Notes under the pieces: model-generated
Database searches by the model: none
Told to the model about the DNA's origin: nothing
What the model saw: only the letters and a program-made list of their open reading frames with translations
Translations under genes and position numbers: made by a program
Shown: positions 1,876 through 12,856 of the stretch, piece by piece
Numbering within the stretch: the stretch's first letter is position 1
How the letters are laid out: every line of letters starts with the position of its first letter
Origin: Verrucomicrobiales bacterium
GTDB lineage: Bacteria > Verrucomicrobiota > Verrucomicrobiia > Verrucomicrobiales > DEV007
Reading direction: 5' to 3'
Assembly: GCA_029213065.1 (NCBI GenBank)
Contig: JARGPH010000040.1
Location: forward strand, 1 to 46,059
DNA: 46,059 nt

Positions 1876-2562
1876 ATGAGTGACTCTATTCTCGAACTGA
1901 AGAACATTTCCAAGTGGTATCATTCCAATCCGGAGAGGAAAATTCTCGAAGGTCTCGATTTAAAAGTAAACACGGGTGACCGGTTTTCAATTGTTGGTCC
2001 GTCAGGCTGTGGGAAAAGCACTTTGCTGAATATTCTGGGAACACTCGATGCCCCTTCGCAGGGGGAGGTCGTTCTCAACGGGAAGGGGACCGGTGGAATG
2101 GACGAAAAGACTCTCTCGGCTATCCGTGCGCGTACCATTGGATTCATTTTTCAAATGCATCACCTTTTGCCGCAGTGCACCGCGCTGGAAAATGTGCTCG
2201 TTCCCACCCTCGCTCTGGGAAAAGAGGCGAACCCTGTCGAAGCGTCCGAAAGGGGCTTTGAATTGCTCAAGCGGGTTGGTCTTGGTGATAAATGCGACAG
2301 CACTCCTTCGCAGCTTTCCGGTGGCGAGCGTCAACGGGTAGCGGTGGTTCGCTCTTTGATCAACCGCCCCAAATTGCTGCTTGCAGATGAACCGACCGGG
2401 GCGCTGGATGAAGACAATGCGTATCGTCTTGTTGATCTGTTAGTTGATCTGAATGAAACCGAGGGGCTTTCGCTGATTGTTGTTACCCACGATATGGATG
2501 TGGCCGGTCGGGTCGGGAAGGTGCGAACTTTAAAGAACGGAAAAATCGCTTCTGCCTCATGA
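1876..2562 (+). CDS. ABC transporter ATP-binding protein, LolD/MacB type
   Basis: A 228-residue ABC ATPase with all catalytic motifs: Walker A GPSGCGKST (41-49), Q-loop Gln93, signature LSGGE (147-151), Walker B LLLADE (167-172) running into EPTGALD, and the switch His205. The EPTGALD form and short length are typical of ATPases that pair with FtsX-type permeases (LolD, MacB, FtsE), which use ATP for mechanical work such as lipoprotein release rather than classical import. The stop overlaps the start of the permease gene by four bases, so the two are translationally coupled. Its cargo is unknown; lipoprotein or envelope-component trafficking is the family-based guess. Confidence 0.93.
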   Translation: MSDSILELKNISKWYHSNPERKILEGLDLKVNTGDRFSIVGPSGCGKSTLLNILGTLDAPSQGEVVLNGKGTGGMDEKTLSAIRARTIGFIFQMHHLLPQCTALENVLVPTLALGKEANPVEASERGFELLKRVGLGDKCDSTPSQLSGGERQRVAVVRSLINRPKLLLADEPTGALDEDNAYRLVDLLVDLNETEGLSLIVVTHDMDVAGRVGKVRTLKNGKIASAS

Positions 2563-5500
2563 ACTCTTTCAAGCTCGCGATCCGATCTTTGATTCATTAC
2601 CGGTGGATAAATCTATCGGTCCTTGCCGGAGTTGCGTTGACATCTGCTATTCTGAGCGGCGCCCTCGTGGTCGGTGATTCAGTGAAGGAAAGTCTTCGCC
2701 GGAATGCTGCTGCGCGAACCGCGGGGATCGGGCCGGTGTTTCTCGGAGGCGAGCGCTACTTTACCGACTCGCTTGCCTCGCGAATTGCCTCTTCTTCCGG
2801 GATCGAGGGTGTCGTAGCGGGTGTGATCCAGGTTGAGGGAACTGTCCTCAACCGCGAGAGCGGTCAACGCGCTAACAAGGTGCAAATTCTGGGCGTTGAT
2901 GAAAACTTCTGGAAGTTGTCTCCCCGCGGGGAAGCGCCTGAGGGATTCGCCGATGAGAACTGGATTGGAATCAATGAGTCACTGGAGAACCGGGTGCAGA
3001 CGAAAGTGGCTGAGACGCTCATTGTTCGGGTGGAGCTGCCGGGAGCGCTTTCAAAAGATGCGCCTTTGTCAGGGGAATCGGAGCAGACGACCCCGTTTAC
3101 GATTGAAGTGAGCGATGTGCTCGGCCCTGACCATTTCGGGCTTTATTCCCTGAGGGCTGAGCAGGTTCCCCCTTCAACGATTTTCGTGAAGCTCGCAAGG
3201 TTGCAGCAGTTTCTTGAACAGCCGGGGCGGGCCAATGTGATTCTTGCCGGTGTCGAGACAGACGCTGAGAAATTGGAGGTCGCGACTAATTCCCTGTGGA
3301 ATCTCGAAGACCTGCAACTCACGGTGGAGGAGGTTGGCGCGGCAAACGAGAAACAGCTCGCCAGTTCCCGCGTCTTTTTCGACGACGTGATTGTCACTGC
3401 GGTGGGTGAGGTTTCAGAGATTGAGTCGCCGGTGTTAACTTATCTGACCACTTCGATTTCAAAGGGGGAGAAGGCGACTCCCTATTCAATGGTCGCCGGA
3501 GTGGGGACTGCGTTGAATGCCATCGTCGATCAGGATCTCGGCGAGGATGAGATAGTCGTCTCCGATTGGCTCGCAGAGGACCTCGGTCTTGTCGAGGGGG
3601 ACGAAGTTGCTCTGACCTACAATGTTGTCGGCGCGGGGAGGGTCCTCGAAGAAAAAGAGCGCAGTTTTCGTGTTTCCGGGGTAAGGCCGCTCAGTGAGCA
3701 GGGTTGGGATCAATCGTGGACTCCGGCATTCCCCGGGATTTTTGATGTTGAGAACCTTGACGAATGGGAGCCGGGTATCCCGATCGACCGGGATAGGATT
3801 CGGGACAAGGACGATGAATTCTGGGACAAATACCGGGCCACTCCCAAGGCCTTCGTTTCGCTCGTTTCCGCTCAGGAGATGTGGGGGAACCGATTTGGTG
3901 AAGTCACTGCGGTGCGGTTTGTGCAAACGGATCAGGGAACGCCTTTTGAGGATTCCCTGAGGGCGCATCTACAGCTGAGCGACCTCGGCATGATCGTCCG
4001 GGACCTTCCCGCCGAATCTGCGGCGGCGGTTGCGCATTCGTTTGATTTTGGATCGCTGTTTGCCAGCATGAGTTTCTTTCTCATCATTGCTGCGTTGGTC
4101 CTCGCCGGACTCGTCTTCGTTTTCGGAATCGAACAGCGTGCCTCCCAGATCGGGCTTCTTCTTGCCTTGGGATTAACGAAGAAAAAGGTTCGCGGTATTT
4201 TTCTGATTGAGGCGCTCTTCCTCTCCGTTTCAGGGGCTCTTCTGGGCCTCTTGCTGGGGTATATTTACACCAGGCTGGCACTCTATGGCATGTCCGGGGT
4301 TTGGAAGGATGCGGCGGCGGGGATTAAGTTCGTCTACTACCTGAAACCGGAAACTTTGCTGATCGCATTTTTCTCCACCGTAATCATCTCCATCGTTGTG
4401 GTGTATCTGGCGAGTCGGCGTGTCAGTGCGATTCAGCCCGGGTTTCTCATTGCTGGAAGCGATGATGTTTCAGCGGGAAGGAAGAGCAAGTGGCGCTGGG
4501 ACTGGTTCTCGTTGATTGTCGGATTCGCCGGCGGATTGGGATGTCTCTTTGCACCGAAGATCGAGGGGACGATGGCGGAACAGGGGCTCTTCTTCGGGGC
4601 CGGGTTTCTCTTTACAGTTGCGGGGGTGGCCTTTTGTTCGCTTTTGATTCGTCGTTTCATGAAGCCGTCGGCAGTGATGACTTCACTGGGAGCGCTCGGG
4701 CGACAGCATACCGTGAGGCGGCGCGGTCGCAGCCTTGCTGTGATCGGATTGATGGCGTCAGGAGTCTTTATGGTCACGGCAATCAATTCGTTTCGTCTCA
4801 ACGGCGAGAGCGGGGCGGAGCGCCGCGGTGCCGGAACGGGGGGCTTCGCTTATTTCGGTGAGTCCACCCTTCCCGTTTACGAGGATCTGAATTCGACGGA
4901 GGCCTGGGAGAAATACGGGATCAATGATGTCGAGGTCGGTTTCTCGGCACTTTCTTTTCGGGTCAGTGATGGCGATGACGCGAGCTGTCTGAATTTGAAT
5001 CGTGCTCAGCGTCCGCGACTTCTCGGCGTGGAAACGAAATTGATTGCGGAGATCAATCCCTTCACCTTCACCAAGCTAGCCGACCCCGACGCTTCGAAAC
5101 GCCCCTGGCAGCTTTTGGACCGGTCGATGGAAGTGGAGGCTGGAGAGGTCCCCGTCATTCCCGGCGTGATTGATCAGAATACGGCGACGTATGCACTGCA
5201 GGTCGGACTGGGGGACCGGGTCTCTTACGAAACGGTTTCCGGCTCTACCTTCGAAGTGGAGATCGTGGGCTTCCTTGATACCTCAGTTCTCCAGGGATCG
5301 TTGACGATTTCGGAGGCCAATTTTATACGCTTCTTTCCCGATGCGGGCGGGTATGAGATGTTTCTCATCGATGGCGAATCGCCTGAAGTTCTCGAACCGC
5401 TCGCCGCTCACCTCACTCGTATGTTCGGAGATCGCGGGTTGGAGATGCGTCCGACCTCGCAAAAGCTCAACGAATTCAATGCGGTGCAGAATACCTACCT

Positions 5501-5873
5501 CAGTATTTTCTCGACTCTCGGAGGGTTGGGGATTTTCCTGGGAACCCTGGGGCTCGCGGTGATTGTGAGCCGTAATGTTCTCGAGCGGAAAGGGCAGCTC
5601 GGTGTCATGCAGGCGATGGGTTTCACTCGAAAAGACCTCGCCGGGATGGTTTTGTCGGAACATTGGTTTCTGCATGTGTCAGGTGTTGTTGTCGGATTTG
5701 TTGCCGCGTTGGTGGCTGTGTGGCCGATTCTGGCCAAAGGCCCCGGCTCGTTGCCCTGGCTGTTGCTGGCAGGGATTAACGGAGCGGTTCTGGTTGGCGG
5801 TTTAGTGTTTTGCGGGGTCGCCGCCCGGATTGTTCTACGCGGAAACTTAATGGAGGCCATTCGCGAGGAGTGA
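2559..5873 (+). CDS. ABC transporter permease with two FtsX domains
   Basis: 1104 residues, about twice the length of LolC/LolE or MacB-type subunits. An N-terminal helix (about 15-40) is followed by a large extracytoplasmic region (about 45-490), then a three-helix FtsX bundle (about 500-630) containing the FtsX-type stretch QIGLLLALGLTKKKVRG. A second set of helices (about 645-760) leads to another extracytoplasmic domain (about 770-960) and a closing three-helix FtsX bundle (about 980-1100) with the matching GQLGVMQAMGFTRKD. One chain therefore supplies both membrane halves, which the upstream ATPase would power as a homodimer. It is probably in the inner membrane and involved in moving lipoproteins or other envelope material; no substrate is evident. 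It overlaps the ATPase by four bases and ends in TGATG, shared with the next gene. Confidence 0.88.
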   Translation: MNSFKLAIRSLIHYRWINLSVLAGVALTSAILSGALVVGDSVKESLRRNAAARTAGIGPVFLGGERYFTDSLASRIASSSGIEGVVAGVIQVEGTVLNRESGQRANKVQILGVDENFWKLSPRGEAPEGFADENWIGINESLENRVQTKVAETLIVRVELPGALSKDAPLSGESEQTTPFTIEVSDVLGPDHFGLYSLRAEQVPPSTIFVKLARLQQFLEQPGRANVILAGVETDAEKLEVATNSLWNLEDLQLTVEEVGAANEKQLASSRVFFDDVIVTAVGEVSEIESPVLTYLTTSISKGEKATPYSMVAGVGTALNAIVDQDLGEDEIVVSDWLAEDLGLVEGDEVALTYNVVGAGRVLEEKERSFRVSGVRPLSEQGWDQSWTPAFPGIFDVENLDEWEPGIPIDRDRIRDKDDEFWDKYRATPKAFVSLVSAQEMWGNRFGEVTAVRFVQTDQGTPFEDSLRAHLQLSDLGMIVRDLPAESAAAVAHSFDFGSLFASMSFFLIIAALVLAGLVFVFGIEQRASQIGLLLALGLTKKKVRGIFLIEALFLSVSGALLGLLLGYIYTRLALYGMSGVWKDAAAGIKFVYYLKPETLLIAFFSTVIISIVVVYLASRRVSAIQPGFLIAGSDDVSAGRKSKWRWDWFSLIVGFAGGLGCLFAPKIEGTMAEQGLFFGAGFLFTVAGVAFCSLLIRRFMKPSAVMTSLGALGRQHTVRRRGRSLAVIGLMASGVFMVTAINSFRLNGESGAERRGAGTGGFAYFGESTLPVYEDLNSTEAWEKYGINDVEVGFSALSFRVSDGDDASCLNLNRAQRPRLLGVETKLIAEINPFTFTKLADPDASKRPWQLLDRSMEVEAGEVPVIPGVIDQNTATYALQVGLGDRVSYETVSGSTFEVEIVGFLDTSVLQGSLTISEANFIRFFPDAGGYEMFLIDGESPEVLEPLAAHLTRMFGDRGLEMRPTSQKLNEFNAVQNTYLSIFSTLGGLGIFLGTLGLAVIVSRNVLERKGQLGVMQAMGFTRKDLAGMVLSEHWFLHVSGVVVGFVAALVAVWPILAKGPGSLPWLLLAGINGAVLVGGLVFCGVAARIVLRGNLMEAIREE

Positions 5874-6670
5874 TGATCCGGTTTTTTCTGATTCTTACCT
5901 CATTGCTCGGATTGCCCTGTTGGCTGGTTGCCGAGGCGGATGAAAAGAAAGAAGCCATTGAGCCGGAGGAGGCTGTGATTGCTCCGAAGGTTGCGGGGAA
6001 TCTCGATATTAAGAACAGTGCCGACGGTTCTTATCCCGGTGGTTCGACTCCGAAGGTGGGAACGTGGAAGGTTGATGCGGCTTCAAAGAAGTTGAACGTT
6101 TCTCCGGTTCCTCTCGTTGAGGGGTGGATGGAGTTCGGGCAGGAGATCAGAGAAAAAGGGGCGACGATTGCCGCTGTCGTGCGTGGTCCGGGAGACGGCC
6201 GGCTCCAGTCGAGGTTCGGGGCGGGGCTGTATGGAAAGAATGGATTTCAGTTGCGGGCGGTTCAGGTCACCGACCGGCTTCAGTTGGTTCGGCGGGGAGA
6301 GGTTCTGGAGGAAGTGGCGTTCGAGCTGGTGCCGGGTGAGGCGTATCACTTTGAGCTTTCCGTGTTGGAGGATGAAGCGGACTGGATCATTGCAGGACGG
6401 GTTTGGCTTCATGAAACCGAACGTCCGGTCGAGGCAATGATCCGCCTGAAGTTCAGCGCGGATGAGTTGCTTTTCCCGCTCGCGGGGCATCCCGTGATCA
6501 CCGCGACTCCTTTTTCCGGTGAGCCTGTTTCCTTTCTCTCTGCGACCGCTTACCTTGGCGAATTCGTGACCCCGGATCCGGAGCCGGAGCCCGTCGAGGG
6601 CAAAGAGGGCAAAGAGGACAAAGAGGCGGCGGATGAACTCGCGGAAGACGAGGCGGGTGAAGAGGAATGA
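5873..6670 (+). CDS. Secreted protein of unknown function with Glu-rich tail
   Basis: I choose the ATG at 5873 because it overlaps the permease stop (TGATG) and is followed at once by a signal peptide: MIRF, a hydrophobic run through LTSLLGLPCWL, then a likely cleavage after VAEA. The mature part of about 245 residues looks like an extracytoplasmic beta-rich domain, with no catalytic motif recognised. The last 35 residues are almost all Glu, Asp, Lys, Pro and Ala, encoded partly by a short direct repeat (CAAAGAGG-like units near 6600-6630). Coupling to the ABC ATPase and FtsX permease suggests a periplasmic partner or cargo of that transporter, which is inference only. Confidence 0.75.
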   Translation: MIRFFLILTSLLGLPCWLVAEADEKKEAIEPEEAVIAPKVAGNLDIKNSADGSYPGGSTPKVGTWKVDAASKKLNVSPVPLVEGWMEFGQEIREKGATIAAVVRGPGDGRLQSRFGAGLYGKNGFQLRAVQVTDRLQLVRRGEVLEEVAFELVPGEAYHFELSVLEDEADWIIAGRVWLHETERPVEAMIRLKFSADELLFPLAGHPVITATPFSGEPVSFLSATAYLGEFVTPDPEPEPVEGKEGKEDKEAADELAEDEAGEEE

Positions 6671-7812
6671 GTGAGGATCGTGTGGTTACCTATCGTCAAA
6701 AATTGAAGTCACTTCGGGAGGTGCTCTTCGCGAATATCGTGATGGCGGCAGAAGTTCCCGCCCCGACCGGACGGGAAGAGAGGTTGACCGATTTTTTGTG
6801 TCATCGCTTTACGGAGTATGGACTCGATAACATTTCTCTCGATGAAGCGGGGAATGCGGCCGGTGTTTTGTCAGGCGAATCCATGGAGCGAAATATTCTC
6901 GTGGCAGCGCACACGGATAAAGTGTGGAAGGATTCCGAAGATCACACCGTTTCGGTCGGGGCGGGAGAGATGAGCGGGCGCGGAATTGCCGATAACAGTC
7001 TCGGGGTCGCAGCGCTCGCGACCCTGCCTCTGGCACTTGAACTCCTCGGGATTACCTTGAAGTCAAATCTGATTTTGTTAGGGACGACACGGAGCTTCGG
7101 GCGCGGGAATCTGGAGGGAATACGATTCTTTCTGAACAACACGGAGCGGGAGATTGATTCTGCGCTCTGCGTCGAGGGAATGCAATTGGGGCGGCTCAGT
7201 TTTGCGAGCCTCGGAATGGCACGTGGAAAAATAACCATTGAGATTCCCGATGGGTGCGTCTCCGGAATGTGTGGCGTCGTCGATGTGCTGACTCAAGTCG
7301 GATCCCGATTGGTGGAGATGGCAGGGGAAGCGGATGATGATTCCGAACTTCTGATCGGTTCGATTGAGGCGGTTTCCGGCTACAATGTGCCCCCGGTTTC
7401 GGGGTTCATTCGATTTGAGATCAGAAGTTCAGAAGCGGCGAAAGTGTCGGAGATCGAGAAACAGATTTTCGACCTCGTCGCGGGGTTTCAGACCTCGGTT
7501 ACGTTGAGAGCCGATCTTGAAATGTTCGCTCACCGGCGGCCGGGAAAACTGGATTCGGGACATCCGGTTGTGACCGAAGCTCGCGAGGTTTTAGGCGCAC
7601 TGGGGATTGACCCGCGGGAAACACCCAGTATTTCGGAGCTGGCTCCTTTATTGAATCACCGGATTCCGGCTCTGACTTTGGGAGTGACCCGCGGGGAGCA
7701 CAGGCACCTCGCCAATGAATCGATCGAACTCGAGCCTGTTTTTGATGGCCTTGCGCAGCTTGTTGCCATGATTGAGTTTATGGATTCCAACGATCTTTCT
7801 TTCGACCAATGA
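6667..7812 (+). CDS. M20 peptidase-like protein lacking the catalytic Glu pair
   Basis: 381 residues with the overall layout of M20 metallopeptidases: AAHTDKV with metal ligands His82 and Asp84, GIADNS with bridging Asp109, VEGMQLGR with Glu170, and a late ligand His in GEHRH (His345 or His347). At the place where active members have a Glu-Glu pair (general base and metal ligand) in a GEEGLGNL-like segment, this protein has Ser143-Phe144 in TRSFGRGNLEG. The GGHS motif, whose His completes the partner active site, reads DGCVSG. Most zinc ligands are kept while the catalytic base is lost, so this is probably a non-hydrolytic binding protein or an enzyme of altered chemistry. No signal peptide. 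It overlaps its neighbours by four bases on both sides and lies immediately upstream of gpgS. Confidence 0.75.
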   Translation: MSEDRVVTYRQKLKSLREVLFANIVMAAEVPAPTGREERLTDFLCHRFTEYGLDNISLDEAGNAAGVLSGESMERNILVAAHTDKVWKDSEDHTVSVGAGEMSGRGIADNSLGVAALATLPLALELLGITLKSNLILLGTTRSFGRGNLEGIRFFLNNTEREIDSALCVEGMQLGRLSFASLGMARGKITIEIPDGCVSGMCGVVDVLTQVGSRLVEMAGEADDDSELLIGSIEAVSGYNVPPVSGFIRFEIRSSEAAKVSEIEKQIFDLVAGFQTSVTLRADLEMFAHRRPGKLDSGHPVVTEAREVLGALGIDPRETPSISELAPLLNHRIPALTLGVTRGEHRHLANESIELEPVFDGLAQLVAMIEFMDSNDLSFDQ

Positions 7813-8795
7813 GTGATATCGACGCAAGGCTGGATCAGTGGTTGAAGACCAACACCTATCATCACTCTGACTTCTGGGACCTCCGGGAGCTGGTCAAGGC
7901 CAAGGAGGAGGCCGGTCTTACCATCAGCCTTTGTATCCCGACCTTGAATGAGGAAGCCACGATCGGAAAAGAGGTGATCGTTTTTAAGAGCGAGTTGATG
8001 GATCGCTATCCTCTTATTGACGAGTTGGCCGTGATCGATTCGGGGTCCACGGACCGCACCCTTGATATTGCAGCAAGCTTCGGAGCTGACACTTATCTTT
8101 CTTCCGAAATTCTACCGGAGTATGGAGACAAGCCGGGGAAGGGGGAAAATTTGTGGAAAGCGATCTATCAGTTGAAAGGAGACATCATTTGTTACGTCGA
8201 TGCTGATATCAAAAACATTCACCCGAGATTTGCCAGTGCGCTGGTTGCCCCGCTCATCTACCGTCCCGAGGTAGATTACGTGAAGGCGTTTTATGATCGG
8301 CCTCTCGCGTTTTCCGATGAGCTCAGGCCCTCAGGGGGCGGACGGGTTACGGAGATTCTGGTTCGTCCGCTCTTCTCGATGTTCTTCCCTGAATTAACCG
8401 CGCTGATGCAGCCGCTCTCCGGGGAATACGCGGTGCGGCGTTCTGTTCTCGAGACATTGCCGTTTCCGATCGGCTACGGGGTCGAGACATCCCATGTGAT
8501 TGACCTCTATCAGGCCAAAGGTCTCGACGCGTTTGCCCAGGTCGATTTGGATAAAAGGGTTCACCGCAATCAGTCGACCGTGGATTTGGGGAAAATGTCG
8601 TTTGGCATATTGCAGACTTTCTTGAATCGTATTCAAGCGAATGGAATGGTGTCAGACCTGCCTGATTTGCACGGACAATTCCGACAGTTTCTAGCCGAAG
8701 GTCATCGCTACGAGTTGACCCGGAAAGAGATTGTTGAGGAGGAGCGTCCCCCTATGATCTCTTTGCCTGAATATTTAATCAAACATGACCGATAA
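7809..8795 (+). CDS. gpgS: Glucosyl-3-phosphoglycerate synthase (GpgS-like)
   Basis: A 328-residue family 2/81-type glycosyltransferase. Seen in the sequence: PTLNEE (44-49), DSGSTD (77-82), PGKGE (109-113), the metal-binding DAD (131-133), GGGRVTE (176-182), QPLSGEYA (201-208), GYGVE (222-226) and His252 in VHRNQ. This order of motifs is that of GpgS, which transfers glucose from an NDP-glucose donor to 3-phosphoglycerate, giving glucosyl-3-phosphoglycerate, the precursor of glucosylglycerate. The length fits the family. The gene is cytoplasmic, overlaps the M20-like gene by four bases and is followed by an overlapping glycosyltransferase and a HAD protein, consistent with a compatible-solute pathway. 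The related mannosyl-3-phosphoglycerate synthase is less likely because that family does not share this motif set. Confidence 0.88.
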   Translation: MSDIDARLDQWLKTNTYHHSDFWDLRELVKAKEEAGLTISLCIPTLNEEATIGKEVIVFKSELMDRYPLIDELAVIDSGSTDRTLDIAASFGADTYLSSEILPEYGDKPGKGENLWKAIYQLKGDIICYVDADIKNIHPRFASALVAPLIYRPEVDYVKAFYDRPLAFSDELRPSGGGRVTEILVRPLFSMFFPELTALMQPLSGEYAVRRSVLETLPFPIGYGVETSHVIDLYQAKGLDAFAQVDLDKRVHRNQSTVDLGKMSFGILQTFLNRIQANGMVSDLPDLHGQFRQFLAEGHRYELTRKEIVEEERPPMISLPEYLIKHDR

Positions 8796-10251
8796 GACAA
8801 AAATGAAAGTGGTCATCGTGCACTATCACCTCCGCCGCGGAGGGGTTAGTCGTGTCATCGATGCGGCACAACGTGCTCTCATCGATCGGGGACATGATGT
8901 TCTCGTGATATCGGGGGAGGCACCCACTTTTGATGGAATGTCCGGTGAGGTAAGAGTCCTCGACGCTCTTGACTATCGAAATACCGGCAGTTCCGTTATC
9001 GCGGACAGCCTTACTGAAGCTCTCAAGGCTGAAGCTCGGGCGTATTTTGGCGGCGAGCCGGATGTCTGGCATTTTCACAATCCCACCCTCGCGAAGAACG
9101 TTATGTTTCCGACCGTGATTCGGATCCTCGCGGAGGAGGGTGCTCGTATTGTCCTTCAGCTGCATGACTTTTCGGAAGATGGCCGGCCGGGAAATTACAG
9201 TAAGCAGCGCTCCTTTTTCGATTCCGAATCCGGGTTTGAGGGCACTCTTTATCCCACCGCGAAGCAGATTCACTACGCAACGATCAATCATCGTGATTTC
9301 GAGTTTTTACGTGCCGCAGGGGTTTCAAAGCAGAACTTGCACGTGCTGCCGAACGCGATCACAGAGTTTCCCTACTCGACCACTCCTGCTGATCGCCCTT
9401 TTTCGAAAGATCGGCTTTTTGCGCTCTATCCCACGAGGGGAATTCGCAGGAAGAATATTGGGGAACTTCTTCTTCTGGCCCTCATCTACGGCGACAAAGT
9501 GGATTTTGCGACAACGCTGAATCCTGAGAATCCGGAGTGGATGCCGGCTCATGAACATTGGAGCGCTTTGATCGAAGAGCTCGAGTTGCCGGTCGATCTC
9601 GGTATCTCGGAGAACAATCGCCACGATTTCCTTGATCTCGTGGGGTGGGCGGACTTTTTTGTTACGACCAGTGTTGCCGAGGGCTTCGGGCTCGCTTTTT
9701 TAGAACCCTGGGTTTCGGGTAAAGCTGTCATTGGACGCGACCTCCCCGGAATCACCAAAGACTTTGAAAAGGAGGGGGTTGATCTGGGGAATCTTTACGA
9801 ACGAATCGACATCCCGGTGGACTGGTTCGACGTTGCCGCGCTTAAGGCCGAGATCGAATCAGTGCTTCGAAGGACTTATCTCGCCTACGATGTGAAGATG
9901 CCGAAATCAGCATTGAAGCAGACATGGAAAGCCTGGGTGCGAAAAGGGAAAATTGATTTCGGGGTTTTGAATGAAACCTTTCAAACGATCGCTTTGAGAA
10001 AACTGAAGGAGAATCCGGATTTGCTGAAAGAGGTCGGCTTTCCGGCTCTTGAACCCGATTCCGGTGCCGCGATCGAATCGCGTGCCCGTATCATTCGGGA
10101 AGTTTACAGTCCCTCACAGTATGGCGAACGACTTGAAAAGACTTATCTCAAGACGCTCACGGGGCACGCCGGGAAAGTGAGCAATCTCAGTCCCAAGCGC
10201 GTTCTCGATCAGTTTCTCGATCCGGCCCGATTGAATTTGCTTCGCCATTAG
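8785..10251 (+). CDS. GT4-type glycosyltransferase, probably acts after GpgS
   Basis: 488 residues with a GT-B fold. The N-terminal Rossmann domain begins KVVIVHYHLRRGGVSRV, the glycine-rich loop of retaining family 4 enzymes that contacts the acceptor or donor phosphate. The C-terminal nucleotide-sugar site has EGFGLAFLEPW (about 298-308), the E-x7-E motif of GT4. The last 130 residues are an additional helical extension. The start overlaps gpgS by 11 bases and the HAD gene begins 2 bases after the stop. By position it could add a second sugar to glucosyl-3-phosphoglycerate, as in the two-step mannosylglucosylglycerate route described in Petrotoga; donor and acceptor are inference. The family also contains sucrose- and trehalose-type synthases, which would be the alternative. 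Confidence 0.78.
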   Translation: MTDKTKMKVVIVHYHLRRGGVSRVIDAAQRALIDRGHDVLVISGEAPTFDGMSGEVRVLDALDYRNTGSSVIADSLTEALKAEARAYFGGEPDVWHFHNPTLAKNVMFPTVIRILAEEGARIVLQLHDFSEDGRPGNYSKQRSFFDSESGFEGTLYPTAKQIHYATINHRDFEFLRAAGVSKQNLHVLPNAITEFPYSTTPADRPFSKDRLFALYPTRGIRRKNIGELLLLALIYGDKVDFATTLNPENPEWMPAHEHWSALIEELELPVDLGISENNRHDFLDLVGWADFFVTTSVAEGFGLAFLEPWVSGKAVIGRDLPGITKDFEKEGVDLGNLYERIDIPVDWFDVAALKAEIESVLRRTYLAYDVKMPKSALKQTWKAWVRKGKIDFGVLNETFQTIALRKLKENPDLLKEVGFPALEPDSGAAIESRARIIREVYSPSQYGERLEKTYLKTLTGHAGKVSNLSPKRVLDQFLDPARLNLLRH

Positions 10252-10253
10252 TA

Positions 10254-11117
10254 ATGGAGGGAGCGGAATACGTAAAGAGTCTGATGCGGCCGCTGGTTCC
10301 TCTTCCCACCGGGCTGGAGCCGCAACTTCCGCCCCTTCCCGGAATTTCCACGGTCGTGTTTGATGTCTATGGGACGCTTCTAATCTCCGCGGCAGGTGAT
10401 GTCGGGGGTCCGGGGAGAGATGAATCGGGGCGGCTCGCGATGGCGAAAGTAAATGAGCTTCTGGAGGGCGCTTTTACCGGTTCTGAAGAGGCCGTCGCTC
10501 ATGCGATTGTGAACCTTCTCGAGGAGGCTCTTTCGGGAAAACGTGCCGAAGGAGTGGCATTTCCGGAGGTCGATATCAGGACCATCTGGACCGAACTCTT
10601 CAAAGAGTATGCGCCGGGGACTTCGGAGCGATTAATTGATAAGGCCGCATTGGAGTATGAGTGCCGCATGAACCCTGTTTGGGAGATGCCGGGCGCGGTG
10701 AACCTGATTCGATGGTTGGCCGAAAGCGGTATTACCATGGGCATCATTTCGAATGCTCAGGATTACACCCATTCGGTTTTCGCCGGAGTCATGGGAGGCA
10801 GCTTTGAAGCACTTGGATTTGATCCTGACTTGATGGTTTTTTCCTACGAAGAAGGAGAGGGGAAGCCATCTCTAGCATTGTATCATAAAATGAGAGAGCG
10901 GCTTGAGAAACGGGGAGTGGCTCCTGATACGGTTCTTTACGTTGGCAATGACATGACTAAAGATGTTCTTCCTGCTGCGGAAGTCGGTTTCCGAACCTGT
11001 CTCTTTGCAGGCGATGATCGAAGTTTGCGTTCAGGTGGTTTCTCAGGTGATGAAGTCGGGGCAATCGCCGACGCTGTCGTGACCGATCTGAAGCAGATTG
11101 GCGATCTTTTGAAATGA
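10254..11117 (+). CDS. HAD-superfamily hydrolase
   Basis: 287 residues with the four HAD motifs: motif I FDVYGTL with nucleophile Asp37, motif II ISNAQD, motif III with Lys in GKPSLALYHK, and motif IV YVGNDMTKDV. Motif I has Tyr39 where most phosphatases carry the acid/base Asp (DxD), a pattern seen in haloacid dehalogenases and some other HAD groups. The cap domain lies between motifs I and II (about 60-155). Because the gene follows gpgS and a GT4 gene, the economical role is dephosphorylating the sugar-phosphoglycerate product, but the missing second Asp weakens that. The last bases overlap the next gene by four. Confidence 0.75.
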   Translation: MEGAEYVKSLMRPLVPLPTGLEPQLPPLPGISTVVFDVYGTLLISAAGDVGGPGRDESGRLAMAKVNELLEGAFTGSEEAVAHAIVNLLEEALSGKRAEGVAFPEVDIRTIWTELFKEYAPGTSERLIDKAALEYECRMNPVWEMPGAVNLIRWLAESGITMGIISNAQDYTHSVFAGVMGGSFEALGFDPDLMVFSYEEGEGKPSLALYHKMRERLEKRGVAPDTVLYVGNDMTKDVLPAAEVGFRTCLFAGDDRSLRSGGFSGDEVGAIADAVVTDLKQIGDLLK

Positions 11118-11716
11118 TGAAAATTTACGAAGTAAGATTCTCTGAGGACCTGGAGGTAAACAAGGGGGGGCTTCTTGAGGATTTTTCGTGTCCCTGGAAA
11201 AGTGAGGCAATTCCGAAGACGCAGTTTCGGGCGGTATGGAATAATGAATTTCTGAAATTCTACTTTGAAGTCGAGGATCATGACCTCGTTCTCGCGGAAG
11301 ATGCGGATTCCGGGGAGGCGGCTTTGGGATCGGACCGGGTTGAATTGTTCTTCGCGAGTTCCCCTGATCTGACGACGCCTTACTACGGGGCCGAAATGGA
11401 TCCGCGGGGCAACGTCTATGATTACGAAGGGCTCTATCACCGGCAGATTAATCCCGCGTGGTCGTTTGATTCTTTGTCATATTCCGGGACGATCATTGAG
11501 GGGGGATACACCGTTGAGGGCACGTTTGCTCTCTCAGAACTTGAGCAGCTCGGCTGCCTGCGCGACGGGGAGATGACCACCGGTGTCTACCGGGCCGAGT
11601 TTTCTCACGGGGACGGGGACAGTGTCATCAACGAATGGATCTGCTGGGTCGATCCGGAAACTGAGGTTCCGGATTTTCATGTGCCCTCATCTTTTGGAAA
11701 ATTTAAACTGGTTTAG
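11114..11716 (+). CDS. CBM9-like carbohydrate-binding domain protein
   Basis: A 200-residue single-domain protein. The beta-sandwich pattern, with FRAVWNNEFLKFYFEVED near 45-62, then LGSDRVELFFA and a tail of the type EWICWVDP, is that of family 9 carbohydrate-binding modules and related DOMON-like domains, here without an attached enzyme. No signal peptide or lipobox is visible (it begins MMKIYEVRF), so it is predicted to be cytoplasmic, unusual for this family. Two ATGs, at 11114 and 11117, could start it; the first overlaps the HAD stop. Its place behind two glycosyltransferases and a HAD protein suggests binding of a sugar product or intermediate. Function is not proven by the sequence. 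Confidence 0.68.
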   Translation: MMKIYEVRFSEDLEVNKGGLLEDFSCPWKSEAIPKTQFRAVWNNEFLKFYFEVEDHDLVLAEDADSGEAALGSDRVELFFASSPDLTTPYYGAEMDPRGNVYDYEGLYHRQINPAWSFDSLSYSGTIIEGGYTVEGTFALSELEQLGCLRDGEMTTGVYRAEFSHGDGDSVINEWICWVDPETEVPDFHVPSSFGKFKLV

Positions 11717-11719
11717 GGA

Positions 11720-12856
11720 ATGAGAGAAGTTCACGAGATTGATCAACTGGCTGCTTTCCTCGAAAGGGAGCATGACCTCAAAGATTGTGTGGTTCAGGGA
11801 TTGGATTTAGGCGAGGTCAATGTGAACTGGGAGAGCGTTCAGCTGGCTGGCGCTGTCTTTCTCGGCTGCCGTTTTCCATCGCTTATTTTTCAGGAACGAC
11901 TTCGCGAGGCCGGCGTTTTGATTTTTCCACGACTTCCGAGGTTGCCATTCAACCCCTACCGCCCCGGACTTTACACGCGGGATGAACTCATGGACGGGTG
12001 GTCCGAGGAGGAGGACCTTTCCGTCGACAAGCGCATTTACGATCACTTCGTTGCCAACGGGCGGCATCGCCCCCATATCCTCGAAGCTCTTGCCCAGCGA
12101 CTTCACGATCATGCGATCGATGACGGCTTAGCTGATCTTCTTGAAGGCCGGGTCGAGGCCGGTGGGGAGAAAAAGGTCGTCGCGATCATGGGCGGTCATG
12201 GGACGCTGCGAACTGACCCTTATTATGAAAAGGTGGTTCGCATTGCCCGCAGTCTGACGCGAAACGGATACTTCGTTGCCAGCGGCGGCGGCCCCGGCAT
12301 TATGGAGGCGTCGAACCTCGGGGCCTGGCTCGCGAACGGTCCGGATGAACTTCTCGAATCGGCGTTGGAACTGCTTTCCGTTGCTCCCGGGTATTCTGAT
12401 GAAGGATTCAACGAAGCCGCGGTGCGGGTCATTGAAATGCATTCGGAAGGGGATTCCTCGTTGGCTATTCCAACCTGGTTTTACGGGCATGAACCCAGTA
12501 ATCAGTTTTCAACGCACGTCGCCAAGTATTTCAGTAACGGGCTCAGGGAAGACGGGCTGCTCGCGATTGCCCGCTATGGAGTCATCTATGCTCCGGGGAG
12601 TGCAGGGACGACTCAGGAAATTTTTATGGACGCTGCTCAGAATCACTATGGGACGTTTGAGTTCGTGAGTCCGATGGCGTTTTTGGGCGTAGCCCGTTAT
12701 GGGAAGGAGACCGGATTGTTCGATACCCTGTCTCGACTCGCTGAAGGCAGGGCCTACCGTGAGATGCTTGCGCTCAGTGACGATGCGGATGAAATCGTCG
12801 ATTTCATTGTGGCCAATCCGCCGAAAACGTATGGGAATGCGGAGAACGCGACGTAA
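11720..12856 (+). CDS. LOG-family (lysine decarboxylase-like) Rossmann protein
   Basis: 378 residues. The first 130 form a separate region with a short pentapeptide-like stretch (LDLGEVNVNWESVQLAGAVF). The rest is a LOG/TIGR00730-like Rossmann domain: GGHGTLR near 155, SGGGPGIMEASN at about 188-199, and APGSAGTTQE at about 291-300. The last two correspond to the GGGxxGxM and PGGxGTxxE motifs, with PGG changed to PGS. Active LOG enzymes release bases from nucleoside 5'-monophosphates; larger family members are mostly uncharacterised. It is the last gene of the + strand run, starting 3 bases after the CBM9-like gene, and converges with the receiver gene. Role unknown; nucleotide binding is the safest statement. 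Confidence 0.75.
   Translation: MREVHEIDQLAAFLEREHDLKDCVVQGLDLGEVNVNWESVQLAGAVFLGCRFPSLIFQERLREAGVLIFPRLPRLPFNPYRPGLYTRDELMDGWSEEEDLSVDKRIYDHFVANGRHRPHILEALAQRLHDHAIDDGLADLLEGRVEAGGEKKVVAIMGGHGTLRTDPYYEKVVRIARSLTRNGYFVASGGGPGIMEASNLGAWLANGPDELLESALELLSVAPGYSDEGFNEAAVRVIEMHSEGDSSLAIPTWFYGHEPSNQFSTHVAKYFSNGLREDGLLAIARYGVIYAPGSAGTTQEIFMDAAQNHYGTFEFVSPMAFLGVARYGKETGLFDTLSRLAEGRAYREMLALSDDADEIVDFIVANPPKTYGNAENAT

Follow-up and report, generated by a model that had tools for sequence, protein, structure and literature searches.

A conserved GpgS, glycosyltransferase and HAD gene cassette in Verrucomicrobiota that may make a sugar-glycerate solute

What is made by the three tightly packed genes at positions 7809–11117 of a Verrucomicrobiales contig (JARGPH010000040.1, assembly GCA_029213065.1)? 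The window, meaning the whole stretch of 46,059 nucleotides that was analyzed, comes from a genome assembly of 5.9 Mb in 80 contigs with a completeness of 96%. On its + strand, the three genes encode a glucosyl-3-phosphoglycerate synthase (GpgS; 7809..8795, 328 aa), a GT4-type (GT-B) glycosyltransferase from a family without a name (hereafter GT4; 8785..10251, 488 aa), and a HAD protein that is a probable pathway phosphatase (10254..11117, 287 aa; PF00702, 49.3 bits). The original prediction, made from the sequence alone, had placed these genes at these coordinates and proposed that they form a route to a disaccharide-type glycerate such as mannosylglucosylglycerate (MGG). The coordinates, shared strand and tight packing were confirmed, with GpgS and GT4 overlapping by 11 bases and a gap of 2 bases between GT4 and HAD. 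The three genes are members of the cassette as claimed, and a fourth conserved member directly upstream had been overlooked. This gene (6667..7812, + strand, 381 aa) has a 4-base overlap with GpgS and encodes a protein of the M20 fold that lacks the catalytic Glu pair (pseudo-M20; PF01546 34.0 bits, cut-off 24.6). As a unit, the cassette is real, conserved and coherent in function.

Conservation was surveyed in 288 Verrucomicrobiota genomes representing 152 genera, with matches called at the NF010496 cut-off for GpgS, at E 1e-10 for GT4, at E 1e-25 for the HAD profile, and at E 1e-60 for the M20 profile. Matches to GpgS, GT4, HAD and M20 were found in 52, 51, 49, and 42 genomes, respectively. 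Among the 52 GpgS genomes, GT4 was present in 49, HAD in 48, and M20 in 42, compared with 2, 1, and 0 of the 236 genomes without GpgS above its cut-off (Fisher p = 4e-49, 9e-49, and 3e-41, respectively, shared ancestry being ignored). Carriers of GT4 were spread over 32 of the 152 genera. A chance neighbourhood of the cassette genes was rejected on the basis of this co-occurrence. Gene order was compared in 54 GT4 loci, consisting of 48 fetched loci, five named records and the window; the fetched loci represent 48 of the 50 other matching genomes (all except G057 and G275). The same fetched stretch also contained GpgS in 41 loci, HAD in 39 and M20 in 36. GpgS, GT4 and HAD shared one strand in 30 of the 54 loci, and in 27 of these M20 did so too.

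The assignment of GpgS was borne out, as the protein scored 391.6 bits against the NCBIfam equivalog model NF010496 (cut-off 262) and matched solved GpgS/MpgS relatives in the PDB with E values of 1e-65 to 1e-61. At E 1e-62 or better, these relatives included five sequences with 217–219 bits, four of them named GpgS. The top-scoring PDB match, with 224 bits and thus ahead of the GpgS entries, was an entry named mannosyl-3-phosphoglycerate synthase (MpgS). Because the best score is to an MpgS entry, similarity alone does not fix the sugar donor; membership of the family is secure, the donor less so. Neighbouring genes of the YcjM type in related genomes favour glucose as the probable donor.

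These neighbours encode a GH13_18-like enzyme of the glucosylglycerate phosphorylase type (c5), which was found in 17 of the 54 GT4 loci, one of the 17 being a weak or partial match (L086, 118 bits). All 14 phosphorylases tested were 40–47% identical, over most of their length, to Escherichia coli YcjM, which is annotated as a glucosylglycerate phosphorylase. For one of them, the best PDB match was a sucrose phosphorylase (184 bits). Since a YcjM-type phosphorylase adjoins the cassette in relatives, glucosylglycerate is the likely chemistry of the locus, and no other observation points as strongly to that compound. In Synechococcus PCC 7002, GpgS, a glucosylglycerate phosphorylase and GpgP carry consecutive locus tags, according to the accessible text of PMC10873239. 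The sole match to the phosphorylase in the source genome, at its 96% completeness, was a GH13 gene adjoining the gene for a sucrose-phosphate synthase. This GH13 gene exceeded no NCBIfam cut-off and was judged only by eye to resemble an amylosucrase; a glucosylglycerate phosphorylase encoded by this genome itself was therefore rejected. In the sucrose locus in question (L130, G000:C46:40500-53000), a sucrose-phosphate synthase bearing phosphatase domains is accompanied by a fructokinase-like gene that stays below cut-off and by the GH13 gene.

A second neighbour, a glycosyltransferase (c4) homologous to mannosylglucosylglycerate synthase (MggS), was found in 27 of the 54 GT4 loci, divergently oriented in 22 and on the same strand in five; one of the 27 was weak or partial (L041, 64 bits). 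Against the MggS family model NF041101, two of three tested members scored 242 and 231 bits over their whole length and a divergent third 63.9, all below the cut-off of 640. At E 1e-40, 37 of the 288 genomes matched NF041101, most with about 208–252 bits and none above the cut-off. The highest NF041101 score in the survey, 449.5 bits (L108, G055:C62), belonged to a gene directly followed by a match to the YcjM-type phosphorylase, in a genome without GpgS above cut-off. An MggS homologue was present in 38 of the 52 GpgS genomes (33 from the E 1e-40 search and five from the locus profile). GT4 was present in all 38 and was kept in 11 of the 14 GpgS genomes without this neighbour, and is therefore not dependent on it. 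The source genome gave no NF041101 match at E 0.001 and no match to the MggS-like protein of a relative, the latter negative carrying little weight by itself, at a completeness of 96% that would allow for a missing stretch. Judged by similarity, the MggS-like neighbour, for which this genome has no match, would be a better candidate for MggS/MggA than the GT4 of the cassette.

Motif I of the HAD protein reads D-x-Y-G-T, and the Tyr that the original prediction had seen in place of the second Asp was present in 36 of 36 aligned relatives (36 of 39 sequences, with a broken frame, L043, and two fusions omitted and the HAD part of the fused L084 kept). Residues D37, Y39, T41, S166, K204, and D237 were found in all 36 rows, and D233 in 34. 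The nucleophilic Asp, the motif II Ser/Thr, the motif III Lys and an acidic motif IV are thereby kept, a pattern typical of HAD enzymes that are active but whose acid/base chemistry is altered. Haloacid dehalogenases also have Tyr at the second motif I position, and these lack an acidic motif IV. A dehalogenase would make little sense beside GpgS; a phosphatase would.

The proposed link between GT4 and HAD held in gene order, in co-occurrence and in three loci in which both are fused in one reading frame (L071, L081, and L084). The same genome offers a likeness to these fusions, as its sucrose-phosphate synthase also carries phosphatase domains (TIGR02472 and TIGR01485, both over cut-off). GpgS and HAD also occur together without GT4 in L119–L121, from the three GpgS genomes lacking a GT4 match, and in L118 GpgS lies with HAD away from GT4. 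HAD is tied to both GT4 and GpgS and therefore behaves as expected of a phosphatase acting on a phosphorylated glycoside, and because it adjoins GpgS in L119–L121, its substrate is probably a GpgS product. At E 0.01 the window HAD did not match TIGR01486, the MPGP/GpgP-type HAD-IIB phosphatase model. As an alternative source of the activity, a canonical MPGP-type phosphatase serving the cassette was rejected: none was found over cut-off in the 52 GpgS genomes, compared with 15 of the other 236, a difference that is not significant (p = 0.08) and a search that covered the MPGP type only, the histidine-phosphatase type of GpgP not being searched. Viewed from the other side, none of these 15 genomes carries the cassette GpgS. 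MPGP-type phosphatases were also seen next to a reading frame of roughly 1000 aa, part of which matches GpgS-type enzymes (e.g., G172:C1:2011652-2013442 and G048:C60:121828-123543). Such pairs in other Verrucomicrobiota are perhaps a separate glycerate-glycoside route.

The best match of the M20-fold profile was the poly(aspartic acid) hydrolase 7ljh. In an alignment of 26 of the 36 loci, none of the 26 proteins had Glu at positions 143–144, which align to the Glu pair of 7ljh. The metal ligands were kept to varying degrees, with the first His in 22 of 26, Asp84 in 26, Asp109 in 23, Glu170 in 20, and the last His in 11. An ordinary active M20 metallopeptidase was rejected, given the missing Glu pair and the frequent loss of the last His. 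All 42 genomes carrying this protein also have GpgS. We infer a pseudo-enzyme within a solute cassette, a non-peptidase partner of GpgS and perhaps a scaffold or regulator. In seven loci from one related family of genomes (L070, L071, L072, L081, L082, L084, and L126), a gene for a GNAT-type acetyltransferase neighbours either the cassette or GpgS; in L070, L072 and L082 it lies between GpgS and GT4. The M20 gene was found in none of these seven loci.

The GT4 protein carries the Pfam domains PF13439, PF13579 and PF00534, each over cut-off, and is 90% identical to its counterpart in Verrucomicrobiales bacterium AH-707-L10, its closest named relative. Its motifs are E-x7-E at 299/307, H-D-F-x-E-D-G-R-P-x-N at 127–137, and R-x-I-R-R-K at 218–223. 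An alignment of 49 of the 54 loci, omitting one long N-terminal extension, three fusions and one fragment, showed E307 in all 49 rows and E299 in 48, with Asp in the remaining one. Across these rows the H-D-F..E..R..N, R..R-K and E-x7-E motifs are invariant, apart from F129 and E299, which are nearly so. An AlphaFold model built from a six-row alignment (pLDDT 72.7, pTM 0.59) returned a broad list of GT-B folds from the PDB, led to no decisive function and placed HepE, PimA, WaaG, BshA, TreT, and sucrose-phosphate synthase all within about 3 Z (7mi0: Z 15.3, root-mean-square deviation 5.4, 316 aligned). Assignment from these folds was rejected, as they form one broad GT-B neighbourhood. Sequence comparison with the PDB gave short C-terminal matches to TreT and Gtf1 only, and no function was assigned from them. 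A search for GT4 on plasmids gave no match.

Taken together, we give an even chance to the reading that the cassette produces an anionic sugar-glycerate solute by the successive action of GpgS, GT4 as a hexosyltransferase, and HAD as the dephosphorylating enzyme. This protective solute is very probably a glucosylglycerate, to which a second sugar is probably attached. In this scheme, GpgS, placed in its family by sequence, would join glucose from a nucleoside diphosphate glucose to 3-phosphoglycerate, giving glucosyl-3-phosphoglycerate. GT4 would then attach another hexose, most likely while the intermediate still carries its phosphate, to give hexosyl-glucosyl-3-phosphoglycerate, from which HAD would take off the phosphate to yield hexosylglucosylglycerate. 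The order with GT4 before HAD is favoured because of the GT4-HAD fusions, and the reverse order is also allowed. The M20-fold protein would act as a non-peptidase partner of GpgS. In many relatives, recycling of glucosylglycerate by a YcjM-type phosphorylase is probable, and a distinct enzyme of the MggS type may give a second entry; neither gene was found in the source genome. The pathway idea of the original prediction was thus broadly right with respect to GpgS, its dedicated GT4 partner and the GT4-HAD link, and the glucosylglycerate-type and MggS-type neighbours in relatives lend it support. It was not supported for the cassette GT4 as a member of the MggS family, since this protein scored 14.8 bits against NF041101 (cut-off 640). 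A mannosylated product, a disaccharide product and the phosphatase activity of HAD are putative.

Several points weigh against this reading. Neither the donor nor the acceptor of GT4 can be read from its sequence. The usual second motif I Asp is absent from HAD in all 36 rows, which do not match D-x-D-x-T/V, and ordinary phosphatase chemistry is for this reason not assured. Among the 52 GpgS genomes, four lack HAD at E 1e-25 and three lack GT4 at E 1e-10, and because some lack GT4, plain glucosylglycerate may be what GpgS and HAD make on their own. The kinship of GT4 with MggS-type enzymes is remote, and its controls were mixed. The GT4 profile and the profile of the MggS-like neighbour (22 of 23 rows) matched each other at E 2.6e-12 over 374 columns with 19% identity. 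When the GT4 profile was run against eight of these 22 proteins singly, six scored 74–85, higher than each of the genome's own 20 GT4-type paralogues, whose roles are not known (maximum 59.4 over 37 columns, then 52.7 over 183 columns), and two gave no signal (28). Five closer MggS homologues scored 60.6, 54.3, 41.1, 40.2, and 35.9 with this profile, so that four of them did not exceed the top-scoring ordinary paralogue. In the reverse direction, the profile of the MggS-like neighbour gave the window GT4 a score of 50.9, under four of the 20 paralogues (73.2, 66.2, 59.9, and 56.6). A quick tree of 16 of 49 GT4 proteins, 11 of 22 MggS-like neighbours, four of the five closer MggS homologues, and 17 of the 20 paralogues placed the first three groups on one side of a branch and the paralogues opposite (SH-aLRT 98), with long branches meeting in it, the join between GT4 and the MggS-like neighbours among them. 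GT4 and MggS-type enzymes are hence possible sisters. The original prediction had named clustering of GT4 with lipid or cell-wall glycosyltransferases as evidence against itself; approached with the paralogues of the same genome, this point has a mixed answer, as the tree, with its long branches, sets GT4 apart from 17 of them and the profile of the MggS-like neighbour ranks it below four of 20.

These mixed profile controls also lend themselves to a simpler scheme, in which GpgS and HAD make plain glucosylglycerate and GT4 acts elsewhere, for instance on a polysaccharide primer or a glycolipid. The pairing of GpgS with HAD in L119–L121 is consistent with it, as is the presence of HepE, PimA and WaaG among the closest folds of the GT4 model, though that whole list is one broad neighbourhood. 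The presence of GT4 in 49 of 52 GpgS genomes versus 2 of 236 others, its overlap with GpgS in the window and its fusions to HAD leave this scheme a slim chance. Some sucrose-phosphate synthases carry a phosphatase-like domain, which provides a model for HAD as an inactive or regulatory partner of GT4 instead of a phosphatase. Such a partner would fit the conserved Tyr, the fusions, and an M20 protein that likewise looks catalytically dead. It is made improbable by the retention of D37, T41, S166, K204, and D237 in every aligned HAD and of D233 in all except two, residues that inactive HADs usually lose, and the lack of a canonical MPGP-type phosphatase in the GpgS genomes points the same way at the non-significant level given above.

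Two further possibilities concern how new the route would be. The cassette could correspond to the known mannosylglucosylglycerate route of Rhodopirellula baltica, with GT4 as MggA and HAD as the phosphatase MggB. Cunha et al. in 2013 are said to have described 'uncommon enzymes' in R. baltica, namely GpgS, MggA and MggB, and hence the same set of GpgS, one glycosyltransferase and one phosphatase reportedly described as novel. MggA is reportedly homologous to MggS, whereas the clear MggS homologue in Verrucomicrobiota is another gene and the cassette GT4 failed the MggS model, so that we hold the correspondence to be unlikely. R. baltica accumulates MGG, as reported in the accessible part of PMC3694870, and the biosynthesis is said to be characterised there in the available text of PMC13342039. 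Planctomycetota and Verrucomicrobiota belong to one superphylum. Alternatively, and as a tentative proposal that we would not yet favour, the cassette may represent a distinct Verrucomicrobiota pathway to an undescribed sugar-glycerate, built from a GT4 family without a named model, a Tyr-HAD phosphatase and an M20-fold pseudo-enzyme. The undescribed product is possibly a trisaccharide glycerate in genomes with an MggS-like gene, and possibly an acetylated sugar-glycerate where the cassette has a GNAT-type gene next to it.

For Petrotoga mobilis, Fernandes et al. in 2010 reportedly described two mannosylglucosylglycerate pathways, GpgS-MggA-phosphatase and Ggs-MggS. The verrucomicrobial loci resemble these in having GpgS next to a glycosyltransferase and an MggS homologue in most GpgS genomes, and differ in that the cassette GT4 is below the MggS cut-off and no MggS homologue was found in the source genome; the HAD type and the M20 partner are also not known from the Petrotoga description. 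With the GpgS/MggA/MggB system of R. baltica, also a PVC bacterium, the cassette reportedly shares a three-enzyme logic. The GpgS/GpgP pathway of cyanobacteria, Persephonella and mycobacteria starts with the same enzyme, whereas the cassette has an additional GT4 and pseudo-M20, and its GpgS genomes have no MPGP-type phosphatase over cut-off; mycobacterial GpgP is of the histidine-phosphatase type. The Petrotoga and R. baltica pathways reportedly follow the same logic, and the chance is fair that the R. baltica work already includes the present route.

The cassette lies within a longer, tightly packed run of + strand genes in the order ABC ATPase, FtsX permease, small gene, M20-fold, GpgS, GT4, HAD, CBM9-like, and LOG-like. 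Upstream, at 1876-6670, the ABC ATPase (1876-2562; PF00005), the large FtsX-type permease (2559-5873; PF02687) and the small gene, which has a signal-like start, are joined by overlaps of 1 or 4 bases, and the permease and small gene are likewise found upstream of the cassette in L039–L042. Downstream, the gene for a CBM9-like protein (11114..11716; PF06452, 47.0 bits) overlaps HAD by 4 bases and adjoins it only in the five nearest relatives (L039–L043). The run ends with a SLOG/LOG-like protein (11720..12856; PF18306, 30.6 bits), whose gene adjoins the cassette only in the nearest relative (L039).

A search of the open-licence literature found no paper naming GpgS together with Verrucomicrobiota. 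In the accessible text of PMC12057145, glucosylglycerate is mentioned solely as a reserve compound undergoing degradation. According to the available part of PMC3694870, MGG was known from only a few organisms at the time of the R. baltica report, and its level there rose about 25-fold under nitrogen limitation. If the reading proposed here is true, the GpgS-GT4 pair in 49 of the 288 genomes would make such solutes common across a widespread phylum, and the cassette would offer three enzyme families to test and a charged osmolyte that needs no nitrogen.

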